Part shown: in pieces, positions 28,540 to 35,862 of the stretch | Layout of the letters: every line of letters begins with the position of its first letter | How positions within the stretch are numbered: the first letter of the stretch is position 1 | NCBI GenBank assembly: GCA_947631645.1 | Contig: CANRMD010000015.1 | Coordinates: 1 to 37,689, forward strand | DNA: 37,689 nucleotides | From: Candidatus Gastranaerophilales bacterium | Lineage (GTDB): Bacteria > Cyanobacteriota > Vampirovibrionia > Gastranaerophilales > Gastranaerophilaceae | Direction of reading: 5' to 3' | Notes under the pieces: model-generated | Database searches by the model: none | Told to the model about the DNA's origin: nothing | The model's input: only the letters and a program-made list of their open reading frames with translations | Program-made: the position numbers and the translations under genes

Positions 28540-29172
28540 ATGGCAGATAAAGCTGATAACAATCTTGATTTAAACTGTCCCGCCTGCGGTAAACCAATGA
28601 AAAAAGTATATTTACCGAAAATTGATATACATTTAGATGTATGTACAAACGGTTGCGGCGGTATTTATTTTGATACCAGAGAATTTAAAAAAGTTGATGA
28701 ACAACACGAAGATATAACAGTCCTTACAGAAATTTTAGACAACAAAGAATTTAAAAAAGTTGATGAAAATAAAACAAGAATATGCCCTGTTTGCAATAAC
28801 ATAATGGTTAAAAATTTTTCAAGTGCAAAGCATCAAATCCAAGTTGATGACTGTTATCATTGCGGAGGGAAATTCCTTGACCACTTAGAACTTGAAAGAA
28901 TAAGAGCGGAATACCTGACAGAACATGAAAGAGCTCAAGATGTAATAAAAGAATATAATGATAAGTACGGTCATATACAACTTGATTTAAGAGAAAAATT
29001 TGTTCCTCCCGAAAACATAGACGATGAAGAAGAGTTCATTCCCGATTATGAACCAAACGTTATTGAATACAGCCCTATTAATTTAGAAAATGAAATATAT
29101 GAAGAAAAACCAAGAATTACGTTAAATTCTATTATTCAATATATATTGTTTAATATATATTCAAAAAAGTAG
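28540..29172 (+). CDS. Zinc-ribbon (zf-TFIIB type) protein, copy 1
   Basis: 210 residues with two zf-TFIIB-type zinc ribbons. The first has LNCPACGKPMKKVYL and CTNGCGGIYFDTREF; the second CPVCNNIMVKNF and CYHCGGKFLDHLELERI. Each pairs CPxC with Cx2-3CGGxxxD. The acidic C-terminal half (EEEFIPDYEPNVIEYSPINL) differs from copy 2 and lacks a membrane segment. About two thirds of the first 125 residues match copy 2, so this is a tandem duplication. Zinc ribbons of this class bind zinc and partner proteins or nucleic acid; the specific role is unknown. GGAA precedes the start, and the second copy follows 36 bases after the stop. Confidence 0.75.
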   Translation: MADKADNNLDLNCPACGKPMKKVYLPKIDIHLDVCTNGCGGIYFDTREFKKVDEQHEDITVLTEILDNKEFKKVDENKTRICPVCNNIMVKNFSSAKHQIQVDDCYHCGGKFLDHLELERIRAEYLTEHERAQDVIKEYNDKYGHIQLDLREKFVPPENIDDEEEFIPDYEPNVIEYSPINLENEIYEEKPRITLNSIIQYILFNIYSKK

Positions 29173-29208: not shown

Positions 29209-29784
29209 ATGGCAGATAATGACAAAATAATTAAATGTCCGGCATGCGGATGTGAGATGGAAAAAATATTTATGCCTAAAGCCGGTGTTAATCTTGATGT
29301 GTGCACAAATGGCTGCGGAGGTATATATTTTGATAACAGAGAATTTAAAGAATTTGATGAACCTCATGAAGATATATCACCGTTAATTGAGTTATTAAAA
29401 GATAAAGAATTTAAATCTGTTGATGAAAATGAAACAAGATATTGTCCTGTTTGCGGTAGTGCTATGATGAAAAATTATGCAAGTGCGGAAAAAGATGTTC
29501 AAGTTGATGAATGTTATTCTTGCGGAGGCAAATTTCTTGATTATGGAGAAATTAAAAAAATTCGTTCGATAAATTCACCTTATAATATAGAGAAAACTAA
29601 AGATATTTTTAAAGATTTGTACGAAAATGCCGGATTGGAATTGATTGAAGAGAAAAAAAGACGCAATCAAAAATCCAAAACAATTAAATACACAGTTAGA
29701 ATATTGTTTGCCATTTTAATAATTGTGTTAGCATTGTTATTTTTAATCAAATTAGGTTATATAAATAAACTTTTTAATTTTTAA
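29209..29784 (+). CDS. Zinc-ribbon (zf-TFIIB type) protein, copy 2, with C-terminal membrane anchor
   Basis: 191 residues. Same two-ribbon core as the preceding gene: IKCPACGCEMEKIFMPKAG, CTNGCGGIYFDNREF, then CPVCGSAMMKNY and CYSCGGKFLDYGEI. After residue ~125 it diverges, and it ends in a basic stretch plus a single membrane segment at about 163-186 (RILFAILIIVLALLFLIKLG). This would anchor the ribbons to the cytoplasmic face of the membrane. GAGGAAAG precedes the ATG. Together with copy 1 it forms a recent duplicate pair with different tails, probably one transcript ending at the terminator at 29806. Confidence 0.75.
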   Translation: MADNDKIIKCPACGCEMEKIFMPKAGVNLDVCTNGCGGIYFDNREFKEFDEPHEDISPLIELLKDKEFKSVDENETRYCPVCGSAMMKNYASAEKDVQVDECYSCGGKFLDYGEIKKIRSINSPYNIEKTKDIFKDLYENAGLELIEEKKRRNQKSKTIKYTVRILFAILIIVLALLFLIKLGYINKLFNF

Positions 29785-31491: not shown

Positions 31492-31758
31492 ATGAAAGAA
31501 GTTGTAATGTATTCCGTTGATTATTGTCCGTATTGTAAAAAAGCAGAACTTTTGCTGAACGATAAAGGAGTACCTTTTAAAAAAATTGATATAACTTCAA
31601 ACGAAGAAGAATACCGCAAAAAGCTGGGAGAAATGTACGGAATAGAGGGGAAAGTTACCGTTCCGCAAATTATAATCGGGAATAAACGCATAGGCGGATA
31701 CGATGTTTTAAACAAACTCAATCTTGCCGGAGAGTTAGATGAATTATTGGAATCTTAG
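31492..31758 (+). CDS. grxC: Glutaredoxin, dithiol type
   Basis: 88 residues, typical size. Active site CPYC in VVMYSVDYCPYCKKAELLL (residues 12-15), cis-Pro in VTVPQIIIGNKRIGG, and the GGYDVL glutathione-binding end. It reduces disulfides or glutathionylated proteins; in anaerobes the reductant may differ from glutathione. GAGGG precedes the start. Only 8 bases separate it from the Hcp-like gene downstream, so the two are very likely co-transcribed. Confidence 0.93.
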   Translation: MKEVVMYSVDYCPYCKKAELLLNDKGVPFKKIDITSNEEEYRKKLGEMYGIEGKVTVPQIIIGNKRIGGYDVLNKLNLAGELDELLES

Positions 31759-31766
31759 GTTATATT

Positions 31767-33359
31767 ATGAATAAATTTTTAAATTACTATAATTCTCTTT
31801 GTTACGGAGCTAATTCGCCTTCCGTATTTTCTTTTGACCCGTTTTTTATTGCAATGAAAGAGCTTCTTATTTCAGAACTTGAACAAGTTGTTTACTATAT
31901 TGAAAAATTAAAAACGCTTGATATTGATATGAAAGAATACACTGATAAAGTAATTGATTTTATATCGGTGTTAATCGTAAATTTAGATTTTAACAAAGAA
32001 AGTTTTTTTGTAATTACAAAAGACCTTTATAAAAACAAAAAGTCACTTGAAGAATTATACAAAAAAGAATGTCAAAAATTATCATTAGAACCTGAACTTC
32101 TTAATAGTTATCCTGAAAAAGATTTATCAAATAAAGAATCAATATTAAAAGCTTTAAATGAATGTGAAAAAAACACCGACATAAACAAAGAAAACTTAAC
32201 TTTAAACAAAAAAAATCTATATGAAATTATGATAAATCTTGTCTTAAAAGCTTGCAATAATTTAATAGACTTAAAAAACTACGGAATAAACTTGGAAGAA
32301 GCAAAAAATCAAGTTCTAAAACTGATAAATACAACTAATTTTCCGTCATTAAACGAAGAAGAACAAAAGAACATAATAAAAGATTTTTCCAAATGCAATT
32401 ATCATATAATGAAAACCTTATATGAAACCATAATAGAAAAATACGGGCCGATTATAAAAACACAGGTTAATATAGGTACAAAAAAAGGCAAAGCAATCTT
32501 AGTTTCAGGCTGCAGTTTTTTAGACTTGGAAAAAATATTAAAGCAAGTAAAAGGAACAGAAATAAATGTTTACACACACCATGAAATGCTTAGTGCTTTT
32601 CAATATGAAAAATTGAGAAATTCCCCAAACTTAACAGCCCACTATCAAAAAAGTACAAACAATTTTCCTCTGGATTTTTCTACATTCCCGGGTCCAATTT
32701 ATATTTCAAAAAACGCCACTCCTAAAATAGACATAATTCGCGGTCAAATATACACTTCAGCAAAATATCCTTACTTCGGTATTGCAAAAATTGAAAATGA
32801 TGATTTTTCTCCATTGATAAAATATGCACTATCTTGTGAGGGGTTTAAGGAAGATAAAGAATTGCAGAATTTAAATATAGGATATGATTTACACGAAATT
32901 GAAGAAAAGACTCAAAACATAATCAATAATTTAAATAATACAAAAATAAAGAAACTTACAATTATAGGTGTAATTGACCGTCTTAGCCCGATAAACGAAT
33001 ATATAAAAACTTTTTATGACGAATGCAGTAATGACAACTTTATAATTTCTTTTGCACAAGAAACCAAAAGAGAAAATTTTTGGCAAGTAAACTCATACTA
33101 TGATTTTGCTGTAGTATATAAAATAATTGAAAAATTATCAGAAAAAATAACAAATCTAAGTGATATTTTAAGCATTTATCTGACAGACTGCAATTCAAGT
33201 ACAATATCACATATTTTTAACTTAATTCATTTAAATATAAAAAAGATATTTTTAGGCCCTTGCTGTCCTAATATAATAAACCCCTCATTAATTGACGGAC
33301 TAAAAGAACTCTATAATATTAAACCTTTAACTACTCCAAAAGAAGATATGAACATATAA
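31767..33359 (+). CDS. Hybrid cluster protein (Hcp)-like protein lacking the metal-cluster ligands
   Basis: 530 residues, about the length of Hcp (prismane protein, hydroxylamine/NO reductase). Clear Hcp-type stretches: GKAILVSGCSFLDLEKILKQ (241-260), INVYTHHEMLSAFQYEKL (266-283), FSTFPGPIYISKN (304-316), DDFSPLIKYAL (345-355), and at the end HLNIKKIFLGPCCPNIINPS and IKPLTTPKEDM. Compared with Hcp from memory, the N-terminal Cys motif is absent and Hcp ligand positions read otherwise: H in SGHDL is C249, Cys in TTNC is A317, Cys in GGCDG lies in GVIDR (401-405), and the WYEQK Glu/Lys is YLTDC (471-475). Only E273 (THHEM) is clearly kept. It is probably a cluster-less pseudoenzyme; the role is unknown. 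The start has weak Shine-Dalgarno, 8 bases after glutaredoxin. Confidence 0.7.
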   Translation: MNKFLNYYNSLCYGANSPSVFSFDPFFIAMKELLISELEQVVYYIEKLKTLDIDMKEYTDKVIDFISVLIVNLDFNKESFFVITKDLYKNKKSLEELYKKECQKLSLEPELLNSYPEKDLSNKESILKALNECEKNTDINKENLTLNKKNLYEIMINLVLKACNNLIDLKNYGINLEEAKNQVLKLINTTNFPSLNEEEQKNIIKDFSKCNYHIMKTLYETIIEKYGPIIKTQVNIGTKKGKAILVSGCSFLDLEKILKQVKGTEINVYTHHEMLSAFQYEKLRNSPNLTAHYQKSTNNFPLDFSTFPGPIYISKNATPKIDIIRGQIYTSAKYPYFGIAKIENDDFSPLIKYALSCEGFKEDKELQNLNIGYDLHEIEEKTQNIINNLNNTKIKKLTIIGVIDRLSPINEYIKTFYDECSNDNFIISFAQETKRENFWQVNSYYDFAVVYKIIEKLSEKITNLSDILSIYLTDCNSSTISHIFNLIHLNIKKIFLGPCCPNIINPSLIDGLKELYNIKPLTTPKEDMNI

Positions 33360-33360
33360 A

Positions 33361-33390
33361 AAAGGAGGAAGATATAAATCTTCCTCCTTT
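33361..33390. terminator. Bidirectional intrinsic terminator
   Basis: AAAGGAGGAAGAT (33361-33373), loop ATAA, ATCTTCCTCCTTT (33378-33390), T run on the right and A run on the left. It lies between the Hcp-like gene (plus) and the paralogue at 33409 (minus). Confidence 0.9.
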
Positions 33391-33408
33391 TTATTTGGTT
33401 ATTATTTT

Positions 33409-34497
33409 TTATATACTTTCTGTTGCCCCTAGAATTTCTAATACTTCTATTACATTATCATATCCGTATTGTGAAACCAATTGATCTAATGATATTTTAC
33501 CTTCAGCGATTTTGTTTGCTATTGCTCTTGGTGCTCCTTTTAATTTACTTGCAACTTTTGCCAATCCTTCTTTATTTAAGTTTGATTTTATTGTATTGAA
33601 TAAGTTTGTTGCTTTTGTTTTTACTGCTTCTTTTACAACTGGTTTTATTTCGTTAACTATTTCTTTAGCCATTGCTTTATTTGTTGCTTTTACTTCATTT
33701 AAGAATTGCTTAGCTGCTGCTATATCATCTGCATTTCCTGATTTTCTTGCTTCTTTCAACATTTGTCTAGCTTGAGCAATATCTGTTTCATTGTAAACTG
33801 ATTTTATTTCATTGTATGTAGCCTTTGCATTTGTAAATGCATTTGTTGCTGCTGCTTTAATTGCACTTGCTCTGTTTGCTGTTGATGATACCATATCTGT
33901 TGCTAAAGCTTTTCCTTTTGCAAATATTGATGCACCTTTATCTAAGCTTGCCATTGCATTTGCAGTTGATGTCTTCATTACTGCATTGTAGCTTGCTTTT
34001 GCTCCGGATATTGATAAGCCTGTTGTTAATGCTCCTCCGCCAACTTGCTGCCATGCTTCTTTTGCTTCAGCATCAGTATCAGCTGTCGCTGCATTATATA
34101 CACCCTTACCGATTTGTACGGCCCCTGAAACAGCTCCAATTCCGCATGCTACTAAACCAACTGCAGGAAAGGCTACACACACAGCTGCTGTTGCTGCTGT
34201 CAACAATGTTTTACCAAGTGAGAATTTTCCGTCTTTGCCTGTAAAACATCCTTTTACCATATTAACTGCTGTTTTACCGACACCTTTTAGTGTATTGCCT
34301 ATTGCACTCCAAAATCCGATTTTACCATCATCTTTACCGTCTGTACATGTTTCACCTGATGCTGATACTGCATATCCGTTTGTGTTAAATAAGTCTCCGT
34401 TTTCACTTTGATATATTGTACTTTGTCCTACTTTGCCTTGTAATTTTTGTAATTGTTGATACATTGTGACTGAATTGATTCCGTTAACTGCTGTCAT
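33409..34497 (-). CDS. EF-hand-like, Ala/Gly-rich protein of unknown function, paralogue A
   Basis: 362 residues from the ATG at 34497, chosen because AGGAT precedes it and the paralogue can only start there; an upstream in-frame ATG at 34512 contains that ribosome-binding site. It opens MTAVNGINSVTMYQQLQKLQ with no signal peptide. An acidic loop TCTDGKDDGKIGF is near 50-62. A hydrophobic Gly/Ala-rich region (about 95-135) could insert in a membrane. A repeat shared with paralogue B follows: DTDAEAKEAWQQVGGGALTT. The rest is long, basic, Ala/Lys-rich helix (175-300), and the end, KISLDQLVSQYGYDNVIEVL, differs from B. It resembles no family I know. Its own promoter region closely matches that of B. 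Confidence 0.65.
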   Translation of the reverse strand: MTAVNGINSVTMYQQLQKLQGKVGQSTIYQSENGDLFNTNGYAVSASGETCTDGKDDGKIGFWSAIGNTLKGVGKTAVNMVKGCFTGKDGKFSLGKTLLTAATAAVCVAFPAVGLVACGIGAVSGAVQIGKGVYNAATADTDAEAKEAWQQVGGGALTTGLSISGAKASYNAVMKTSTANAMASLDKGASIFAKGKALATDMVSSTANRASAIKAAATNAFTNAKATYNEIKSVYNETDIAQARQMLKEARKSGNADDIAAAKQFLNEVKATNKAMAKEIVNEIKPVVKEAVKTKATNLFNTIKSNLNKEGLAKVASKLKGAPRAIANKIAEGKISLDQLVSQYGYDNVIEVLEILGATESI

Positions 34498-34776
34498 ATA
34501 ATTAATCCTCATATTTACTAATACATTTTAATAAAGTATTTTTGAAATTAATTATTGACTTTTTTTGCTGTTTTATTAAGAATTATTAAGAAAAAAACAT
34601 ATATAATGTATATTTTATATATAATTAATAATATTAAATTATATTTTATAATATATATTCTAATTATATTGATTTTGTCTTGAGTTAAAGAAATTAATTT
34701 AAAATATAACAAACATAAATAAAAAGAAAGGGTCCTGTTAAGAACCCTTTTTTTGTTTATTATTATTTTATAATAT
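34498..34776 (-). other. Gap between paralogues: duplicated upstream region, AT-rich filler and terminator of paralogue B
   Basis: 279 bases without a credible gene. 34498-34567 matches closely the region before paralogue B (35863-35937), including GTCAATAATTA and ATACTTTATTAA on the minus strand. 34570-34720 is extremely AT-rich with no clear signal. 34727-34750 is the terminator of paralogue B. Confidence 0.55.
34727..34750 (-). terminator. Intrinsic terminator of paralogue B
   Basis: AAAGGGT (34727-34733) pairs with ACCCTTT (34744-34750) across a 10-base loop. Reading the minus strand, it is followed by CTTTTTATTT. It lies 27 bases after the stop of the gene at 34777. Confidence 0.75.
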
Positions 34777-35862
34777 CTATACACTACAGTGTGATGGTTT
34801 CATACTAGTTGCTTGTTTCATTATCTCCAAAAGCATAGCTTGTGCATTAGAAGATAAATTCTTAAATATGGTAGAATCAGGATGAGCTATCTTTGCTATT
34901 TGATAGAATGTTTTTGTATTGAATCCCTCATTTTCTAATTGAGTTAATAAAGATTGTGCTTTTACTACATTAGGATCAATTGCTGTTGCCGATGTAATAT
35001 TTGCTGCATCATCTACTGAATTTACTACTTGAGCTAATGCTTTACTTGTAGGGTTTGATGAAACAGGAGTAGTTGATTCTGCTGCTGATGGCGGCAATTT
35101 TTTAACATCAGAGCTTGTAACCTTAAAACGCGTTTCATCAACAATGGGTGCTTTTTCACTAGTTGCATTAGCAGAAGTTGATGTTTTAGTCTCGATAGTT
35201 GCTAACTCTGTAGACTTAGCTGCAAATTTTGAACTTACAAAACCGCTAATTTTTGAACCTGCATTTATAAAAGAAGTTTTTACAGAACCGGGAGCTGCTT
35301 TAAAACAAGCTTTAGTAGCTTGAAGGGCAGTCATGTTTTCAGCACCTTCAATATGTGCTGCCTTTGCCGCACTCTTTGCACCGGCAACAGAAGCAGCTAC
35401 TGCAAATGTACCACTACCAACTCCCTGCCATGCATCTTTTGCTTCGGCATCTGTTGTTGCCGTTGCAGCTTTATATAGTCCGGTGCCTATTTGAATTGTA
35501 CCCATAGTTGCACCGGCTGCAACAAAGATTGGAGCAGCTGCACCACCAGTTAATGCTATAATGCCTGCACCTGCCGCAATTGTAAGTGCACCCACTAAAA
35601 AGTTTTTAGGAGATTTAAACATATTAGTAATTGGAGAAACAAGACCTTTTCCAAAGTTCTTTAACCCCTCCATAAAAGTTAATTTACCATCATCTTTACC
35701 GTCTGTACAAGTTTCACCTGATGCTGCTGATACTGCATATCCGTTTCCGTTAAATATAGTTCCATCTTCAGCTTGGTATAATGTATTTGCTGCATTTGAA
35801 TTTGTTTGTAATCTTTGCAATTCATACAATGTTATTGAATTAATTCCGTTAACTGCTGTCAT
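34777..35862 (-). CDS. EF-hand-like, Ala/Gly-rich protein of unknown function, paralogue B
   Basis: 361 residues. It opens MTAVNGINSITLYELQRLQT, close to paralogue A. An acidic loop CTDGKDDGKLTFMEGLKN near 50-67 fits an EF-hand loop with Glu at position 12 (DGKDDGKLTFME). A hydrophobic Gly/Ala-rich region is at about 85-125, followed by GTIQIGTGLYKAATATTDAE and AKDAWQGVGSGTFAVAASVA, shared with A. The C-terminal half is Ser/Thr/Pro-rich and differs from A, with a small helical end (SLLTQLENEGFNTKTFYQIA, KIAHPDSTIFKNL). No signal peptide; if secreted, it uses another route. AGGAT precedes the start. Shared N-termini and swapped tails suggest a modular family. Confidence 0.65.
   Translation of the reverse strand: MTAVNGINSITLYELQRLQTNSNAANTLYQAEDGTIFNGNGYAVSAASGETCTDGKDDGKLTFMEGLKNFGKGLVSPITNMFKSPKNFLVGALTIAAGAGIIALTGGAAAPIFVAAGATMGTIQIGTGLYKAATATTDAEAKDAWQGVGSGTFAVAASVAGAKSAAKAAHIEGAENMTALQATKACFKAAPGSVKTSFINAGSKISGFVSSKFAAKSTELATIETKTSTSANATSEKAPIVDETRFKVTSSDVKKLPPSAAESTTPVSSNPTSKALAQVVNSVDDAANITSATAIDPNVVKAQSLLTQLENEGFNTKTFYQIAKIAHPDSTIFKNLSSNAQAMLLEIMKQATSMKPSHCSV

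Follow-up and report, generated by a model that had tools for sequence, protein, structure and literature searches.

A family-wide Hcp paralogue in Gastranaerophilales with few hybrid-cluster ligands, newly conserved cysteines and a glutaredoxin-fold gene often next to it

The window analysed here, a stretch of 37,689 nucleotides from a Candidatus Gastranaerophilales genome, carries two adjacent forward-strand genes separated by 8 bases. The first (ORF 31492-31758) encodes an 88-residue glutaredoxin containing a CPYC motif, and the second (ORF 31767-33359) encodes a protein related to hybrid cluster protein (Hcp), a well-studied metalloenzyme, which we call pseudo-Hcp. The features mapped onto this pair are collected in Table 1. 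Hairpins matching the terminator consensus, one of which closes the pair, number two, against 0.6 expected. Elsewhere in the window, the proteins encoded at 33409-34512 (-) and 34777-35862 (-) are 47% identical over 165 residues at the N-terminal end, with a shared part that includes NGYAVSA(A)SGETCTDGKDDGK; Pfam has no match for either. ORFs of similar size (clusters c20 and c27), compared by size and position only, lie at the same place in 15 of 25 genus-group loci. Tandem zinc-ribbon proteins are encoded at 28540-29172 and 29209-29784 (+); they are 54% identical over 149 residues, and each contains two Zn_ribbon_TFIIB stretches.

Table 1. Mapped features of the glutaredoxin–pseudo-Hcp gene pair (positions in the window).
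Feature	Position	Strand	Basis
Glutaredoxin of the classical dithiol type, with CPYC, TVPQ and GGYD; opens the pair	31492..31758	+	PF00462, 66.3 bits vs 22.9
Pseudo-Hcp, Hcp fold without hybrid-cluster ligands, 530 aa	31767..33359	+	Pfam Prismane; AlphaFold2 model; fold matches to Hcp
C12 codon, sole cubane-motif Cys kept in the window protein; E. coli C18 in the alignment	31800..31802	+	
C102 codon, conserved Cys ending a domain-1 helix	32070..32072	+	64/70 relatives
C249, formerly the His ligand of the hybrid cluster	32511..32513	+	Alignment column
E273 (THHEM), sole hybrid-cluster ligand identity kept in the window protein	32583..32585	+	
A317, formerly a Cys ligand	32715..32717	+	Cys in 0/70
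I403, formerly the persulfide-Cys ligand	32973..32975	+	Cys in 0/64
C475 codon, new Cys directly preceding the former Glu ligand	33189..33191	+	166/173
N476, formerly a Glu ligand (E. coli E492)	33192..33194	+	Asp 107, Asn 44, Glu 4 of 173
C499 codon, new Cys within the GPxxP loop	33261..33263	+	166/173
C500 codon, candidate swapped fourth ligand	33264..33266	+	Cys covariation with C21
Terminator-like hairpin of 15 perfect pairs, T tracts on each strand, closing the pair	33359..33392	.	Consensus match

The window protein matches the Pfam Prismane family at 89 bits (cut-off 27) and retains the Prismane/CODH domain and the Hcp fold over its whole length, which bears out the preliminary description of an Hcp-like protein that keeps its scaffold. 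Both NCBIfam Hcp equivalogs also match, each far below its cut-off (TIGR01703, 190.6 against 360.8 bits; NF003658, 190.8 against 367 bits). With the window protein, matches were found in 185 of the 192 genomes of the order, some of them through canonical Hcp, and on this spread together with the dN/dS ratios given below we rejected chance or annotation error. Some genomes hold a canonical Hcp as well; in its own genome the window protein is the only Prismane match.

We take the hybrid-cluster ligands, using the positions of D. vulgaris Hcp, to be a set of seven (one His, two Glu and four Cys), and the corresponding columns were read from alignments to E. coli Hcp and canonical family paralogues. 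A published study names matching ligands for M. marburgensis Hcp, and Glu492 for E. coli (PMC10502027). In the window protein the His column holds C249, the four Cys columns hold A317, I403, Q431 and Y444, and the two Glu columns hold E273, which is kept, and N476, leaving one of seven ligands. The earlier reading that nearly all hybrid-cluster ligands are lost is thus right for this protein. Its companion claim, that the N-terminal Cys motif is lost, applies to three of the four cubane cysteines but not to C12. The Glu of THHEM is likewise present as described, but its column is not conserved, with Glu in 35 of 173 relatives and in 12 of 21 within the window's genus, and E273 was therefore rejected as a key residue.

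The relatives show the same erosion. At the position of E. coli C458 every row of the 173-row alignment has a gap, and six ligand columns were therefore scored; 133 of the 173 unique relatives keep none of them, 37 keep one and three keep two. A 64-row alignment has Cys at the C458 column in 6% of rows and at the C433 column in 5%. Duplicates and relatives of less than 400 aa were removed from the sets used here, five degenerate proteins of other families (L089, L101, L102, L104 and L106) were left out of the sets of 70 and 173, and the sets of 70, 78 and 173 share genomes.

With profile A2, a match with an E-value of 1e-60 or lower turns up in 166 of the 170 genomes that represent the window's family. 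Six of these genomes (G066, G147, G180, G219, G232 and G242) are represented by scores only, at E 5e-71 to 2e-88, and their pseudo-Hcp status is uncertain because canonical Hcps of the same class reach E 5.5e-92; the other family matches lie far above the canonical score range or were inspected as sequences. From outside the order came 32 matches in the phylum sample (E 7e-62 to 2e-78, scores only) and 18 in the class sample, three of the latter, inspected as sequences (L241, L242 and L252), having all seven canonical ligands. We infer from these scores, by which most of the outside-order matches were judged, that pseudo-Hcp is restricted to this Gastranaerophilales family. Canonical Hcp is patchy: 37 of 41 genomes of the window's genus have a Prismane match, mostly of the low-scoring kind, and in one genome of good quality (G014) the Pfam search picked up the canonical copy only. 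The bacteria of the family live mostly in the gut: among the best 80 of 262 relatives, many sources are rumen, gut or faeces, and a few, such as L184, L189 and L196, come from other sites. These three loci also carry repeated pseudo-Hcp genes, three in tandem in L184 (3950-5554 and following) and two each in L189 and L196.

Pseudo-Hcps of other genera are just 25-40% identical to the window protein. In the tree, 70 non-redundant members form one clade (SH-aLRT 100) and canonical Hcp forms another (99), with the degenerate Hcps from two further families of this order (L089, L101/L102 and L104/L106) branching between the two. This topology would fit one duplication followed by erosion. The dN/dS ratio is 0.03-0.13 in seven pseudo-Hcp pairs, with dS above 1.3 in six of them; the only pair with dS below 1, L142/L248, has a ratio of 0.033, and two canonical pairs give 0.05. 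Judged by these ratios, pseudo-Hcp is retained by purifying selection. A clade of shorter pseudo-Hcps (474-511 aa; L139, L141, L142, L244, L245, L246, L248, L249 and L251) has an altered C-terminal domain, and its eight loci with enough flank have no adjoining glutaredoxin.

The preliminary description took the metal site to be simply lost, and this is not supported: C12, C475, C499 and a fourth cysteine that swaps position are conserved, and C102, C475 and C499 were absent from that account. Among the 70 non-redundant relatives Cys is found at C12 in 70, at C475 and C499 in 66 each and at C102 in 64. Canonical Hcps (n=33; 30 from the order, two from another order and that of E. coli) have Tyr or Phe at the C475 position and Thr, Ser or Asn at the C499 position in 33 of 33. 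C475 and C499 are present or absent together, with both in 166 of the 173 relatives, neither in seven (L088, L144, L246, L249, L324, L330 and L333) and a single one in none; each was lost four times on a tree built without those columns. C102 was dropped as a core novel cysteine because some canonical Hcps have Cys at or near that position; its segment is absent from 21 of the 33.

At the N-terminus, C12 of the window protein falls outside the column of the other N-terminal cysteines in the 173-row alignment (in the 70-row alignment they share one column) and conservation there was therefore counted by spacing, leaving out L332, the N-terminus of which is cut by the contig. A Cys lies 6 to 9 residues ahead of the C21 column in 172 of 172 relatives, as CX5C, which makes up the latter half of the cubane motif in D. 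vulgaris, in 141 and as CX7C in two. C21, the second Cys of CX5C, is absent from 29 of the 172 (L073, L080 and 27 that align with the group of the window protein), and all 29 have a Cys adjoining C499, at position 500 or 498, against 0 of 143 relatives with C21. Over 70 rows the same swap shows as 23/23 against 0/47, with no additional Cys up to three residues from C499. For the overlapping set of 78 loci, 26 of 27 proteins without C21 have a Cys directly beside C499 (again 498 or 500), as do 0 of 51 with it; the exception, L175, has neither C21 nor a Cys within three residues of C499, and three of the 51 have a Cys two residues from C499 on the N-terminal side. On the tree the swap amounts to two changes at each site, with one of the two C21 losses on well-supported branches, and two independent C21 losses and four pair losses are too few for sign tests to reach significance.

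In the AlphaFold2 model, C475 and C499 come right after consecutive strands of the C-terminal domain (468-472 and 493-496). The study of M. marburgensis Hcp describes loops around Glu434 and Trp461 that move by 5.3-5.8 Å when the [4Fe-4S] domain is disordered (PMC10502027). Alignment to this protein pairs C475 with M433, N476 with Glu434, C499 with I457, four residues ahead of Trp461, and I503 with Trp461, and thus places both new cysteines in loops that pack on the cubane domain, the site of C12. A shared centre is therefore plausible. The models leave the N-terminal loop unordered: pLDDT is below 50 for residues 1-11 and 13-22 in the window protein and for residues 1-21 in a CX5C relative.

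The glutaredoxin of the pair carries CxxC, TVP and GG motifs, which we take to be typical of glutaredoxins; it scores below the TIGR02181 Grx3 cut-off (83.1 against 90) and is the only strong glutaredoxin match in its own genome, where the next best reaches 24.7 bits. The association that the preliminary description drew from the 8-base spacing has held up across genomes, since 118 of the 169 loci with enough flank (173 loci in total) have a glutaredoxin-fold gene immediately upstream in the same orientation, leaving 51 without an adjoining glutaredoxin. Of these neighbours 30 are classical, as in the window, 87 are stand-alone GST_N_3-like proteins (QVPF, YESDDII) and one is of another type. 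The classical type, in the window's genus, has a TPR gene ahead and a beta-ketoacyl synthase gene on the opposite strand one or two genes downstream; the GST_N_3-like type lies mostly by wecB-like, rpsG and rpsL genes, where names of neighbours without a Pfam match were assigned from reading the sequences. The stand-alone type is found upstream in many other genera (for example L208 and L218), with CPYC, CPFC or CPYS. A recurrent link between pseudo-Hcp and a glutaredoxin-fold protein, of two subfamilies in different settings, is thus supported.

On sequence comparison, the window gene is the local copy of an Hcp paralogue found across its Gastranaerophilales family. This paralogue has lost the hybrid-cluster ligands but retains the fold, is maintained by selection and conserves a set of cysteines. 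Because the ligands are lost, four cysteines of a new set are conserved and a glutaredoxin-type gene is often adjacent, the old Hcp fold appears to have been remodelled for a different thiol or iron-sulfur function, and the pattern of C12, C475, C499 and a fourth Cys that swaps position speaks for a thiol or metal centre that was rebuilt. The conserved set brings together C12 of the old cubane motif, joined in most relatives by the second Cys of CX5C, and the new C475 and C499 in two loops of the C-terminal domain. The four may converge into a single centre, which would most likely be a Cys4 site for Fe-S (or another metal) where the cubane used to lie, with the fourth ligand shifted in the window's genus from the N-terminal loop to C500. 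Pseudo-Hcp would then act as a thiol-redox or electron-transfer partner of the glutaredoxin-fold protein and probably not as an NO or hydroxylamine reductase. Taken as one explanation, the Cys4 centre, the shift of its fourth ligand and the glutaredoxin partnership form our leading reading, which we hold tentatively. The small number of independent losses, the L175 exception, the three proteins that combine C21 with a Cys two residues before C499, the seven relatives without the C475/C499 pair and the 51 loci without a glutaredoxin count against it, as does the unordered C12 loop in both models, where a cluster-binding loop would be expected to pack. The preliminary description had allowed that cysteine ligands at shifted positions would overturn its reading; such cysteines are present in part, and they point to a different centre from the hybrid cluster. 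For S-nitrosothiol or persulfide chemistry in particular, which that description raised, our data speak neither in favour nor against. A more detailed proposal, that the Hcp fold has become a ferredoxin-driven Fe-S thiol reductase, unrelated to ferredoxin:thioredoxin reductase, in which a rebuilt Cys4 cluster bridging the N-terminal loop and the C-terminal domain would hand low-potential electrons singly to glutaredoxin, is a long shot.

A metal-free dithiol is unlikely on balance, yet a serious competitor. Here C475 and C499 would form a redox-active disulfide at the rim of the emptied pocket, reduced by glutaredoxin, with the N-terminal Cys providing a second pair or a mixed disulfide. Their joint presence or absence (166/7/0 of 173), their predicted placement after consecutive strands and the glutaredoxin-fold neighbours all suit such a disulfide, as do the thiol genes of the ten genomes examined, among which gshA-like genes occur in ten and gshB-like genes in nine, the window's own genome having no gshB match. 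Thioredoxin reductase (38-46% identity) was found in nine of the ten, once as a fragment, with just a weak match in the tenth, G048; a search with E. coli Gor returned matches of only 24-37% identity, and absence of glutathione reductase is not claimable because flavoprotein relatives are present. By itself, however, a dithiol explains neither why the N-terminal Cys is constant nor why, in two lineages, the fourth Cys moved from the N-terminal loop to a place beside C499, and the neighbouring glutaredoxin is monothiol (CPYS) in 12 of 122 adjoining glutaredoxin-fold genes (from loci that overlap in genomes), mostly beside intact pairs. A link between C475/C499 loss and a CPYS glutaredoxin, suggested by L088, was dropped, as ten of the 12 CPYS genes stand beside other loci.

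The glutaredoxin adjacency could instead be a coincidence of genome layout, with pseudo-Hcp doing something unrelated, which we consider rather unlikely. The 51 loci without a glutaredoxin speak for it, and a glutaredoxin-family match occurs somewhere in all 30 genomes examined; yet PF00462 and stand-alone GST_N_3 types both hold the upstream place in different settings, and no glutaredoxin was seen at any of 30 canonical Hcp loci, most of which have only about 1.5 kb of flank. It is improbable that pseudo-Hcp is a cluster-free scaffold, serving as sensor, chaperone or adaptor with structural or unimportant cysteines: the absent hybrid ligands, the unordered N-terminal loop of the AlphaFold models and the four lineages that do without C475/C499 would agree with this, but an N-terminal Cys in 172 of 172 relatives and a paired C475/C499 at 25-40% identity are hard to explain without a thiol role. 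A functional Hcp holding its hybrid cluster on shifted ligands would suit a fold intact along its full length, but with at most two of the six scored ligand columns kept in any of the 173 relatives and the new cysteines in cubane-facing loops it is rejected as extremely improbable.

Pseudo-Hcp, a paralogue found family-wide, is thus more than a scaffold that has lost its cluster: it has a new set of conserved cysteines, and a glutaredoxin-fold gene recurs beside it. In our searches of open-access literature we found no account of a glutaredoxin–pseudo-Hcp pair or of a ligand-free Hcp. A whole bacterial family keeps an Hcp paralogue in which one ligand set has been dropped and another conserved, with the pattern of a ligand swap visible; if our preferred reading of a rebuilt Cys4 centre is true, a complex Fe-S enzyme has been dismantled and its electron-entry site reused. 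The prediction is compact and testable, consisting of four named cysteines and one partner gene, and a Prismane match in these genomes should not simply be taken for a hydroxylamine or NO reductase.

Among known systems, the closest is Hcp itself (prismane, hydroxylamine reductase; classes I-III), the cluster ligands of which are described as conserved among all three classes in the cited study (PMC10502027). Pseudo-Hcp differs from it in keeping one of seven hybrid ligands and one of four cubane cysteines, in its new C475 and C499 and in falling under both NCBIfam Hcp cut-offs. The canonical class was sorted by six intact ligand columns, without use of the His ligand or the cubane cysteines, and these too are intact in 33 of 33 canonical paralogues. 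The degenerate Hcps L089, L101/L102 and L104/L106 resemble pseudo-Hcp in having lost part of the ligands and lie on the same side of a 99%-supported branch from the canonical proteins, but they have no C475; L089, unlike pseudo-Hcp, keeps the four cubane cysteines and three hybrid ligands, and L101/L102 keep CX5C and two hybrid ligands. These five are possibly side branches or intermediates of the erosion. The C-cluster of Ni,Fe carbon monoxide dehydrogenase shares ligand columns with the His and Cys ligands of Hcp, according to that study (PMC10502027). In the window protein the shared columns hold C249, A317, I403, Q431 and Y444, and the C-cluster ligand set is thus not retained. Should an Fe-S centre of pseudo-Hcp reduce glutaredoxin, its functional counterpart would be ferredoxin:thioredoxin reductase, the fold of which is unrelated to Hcp.
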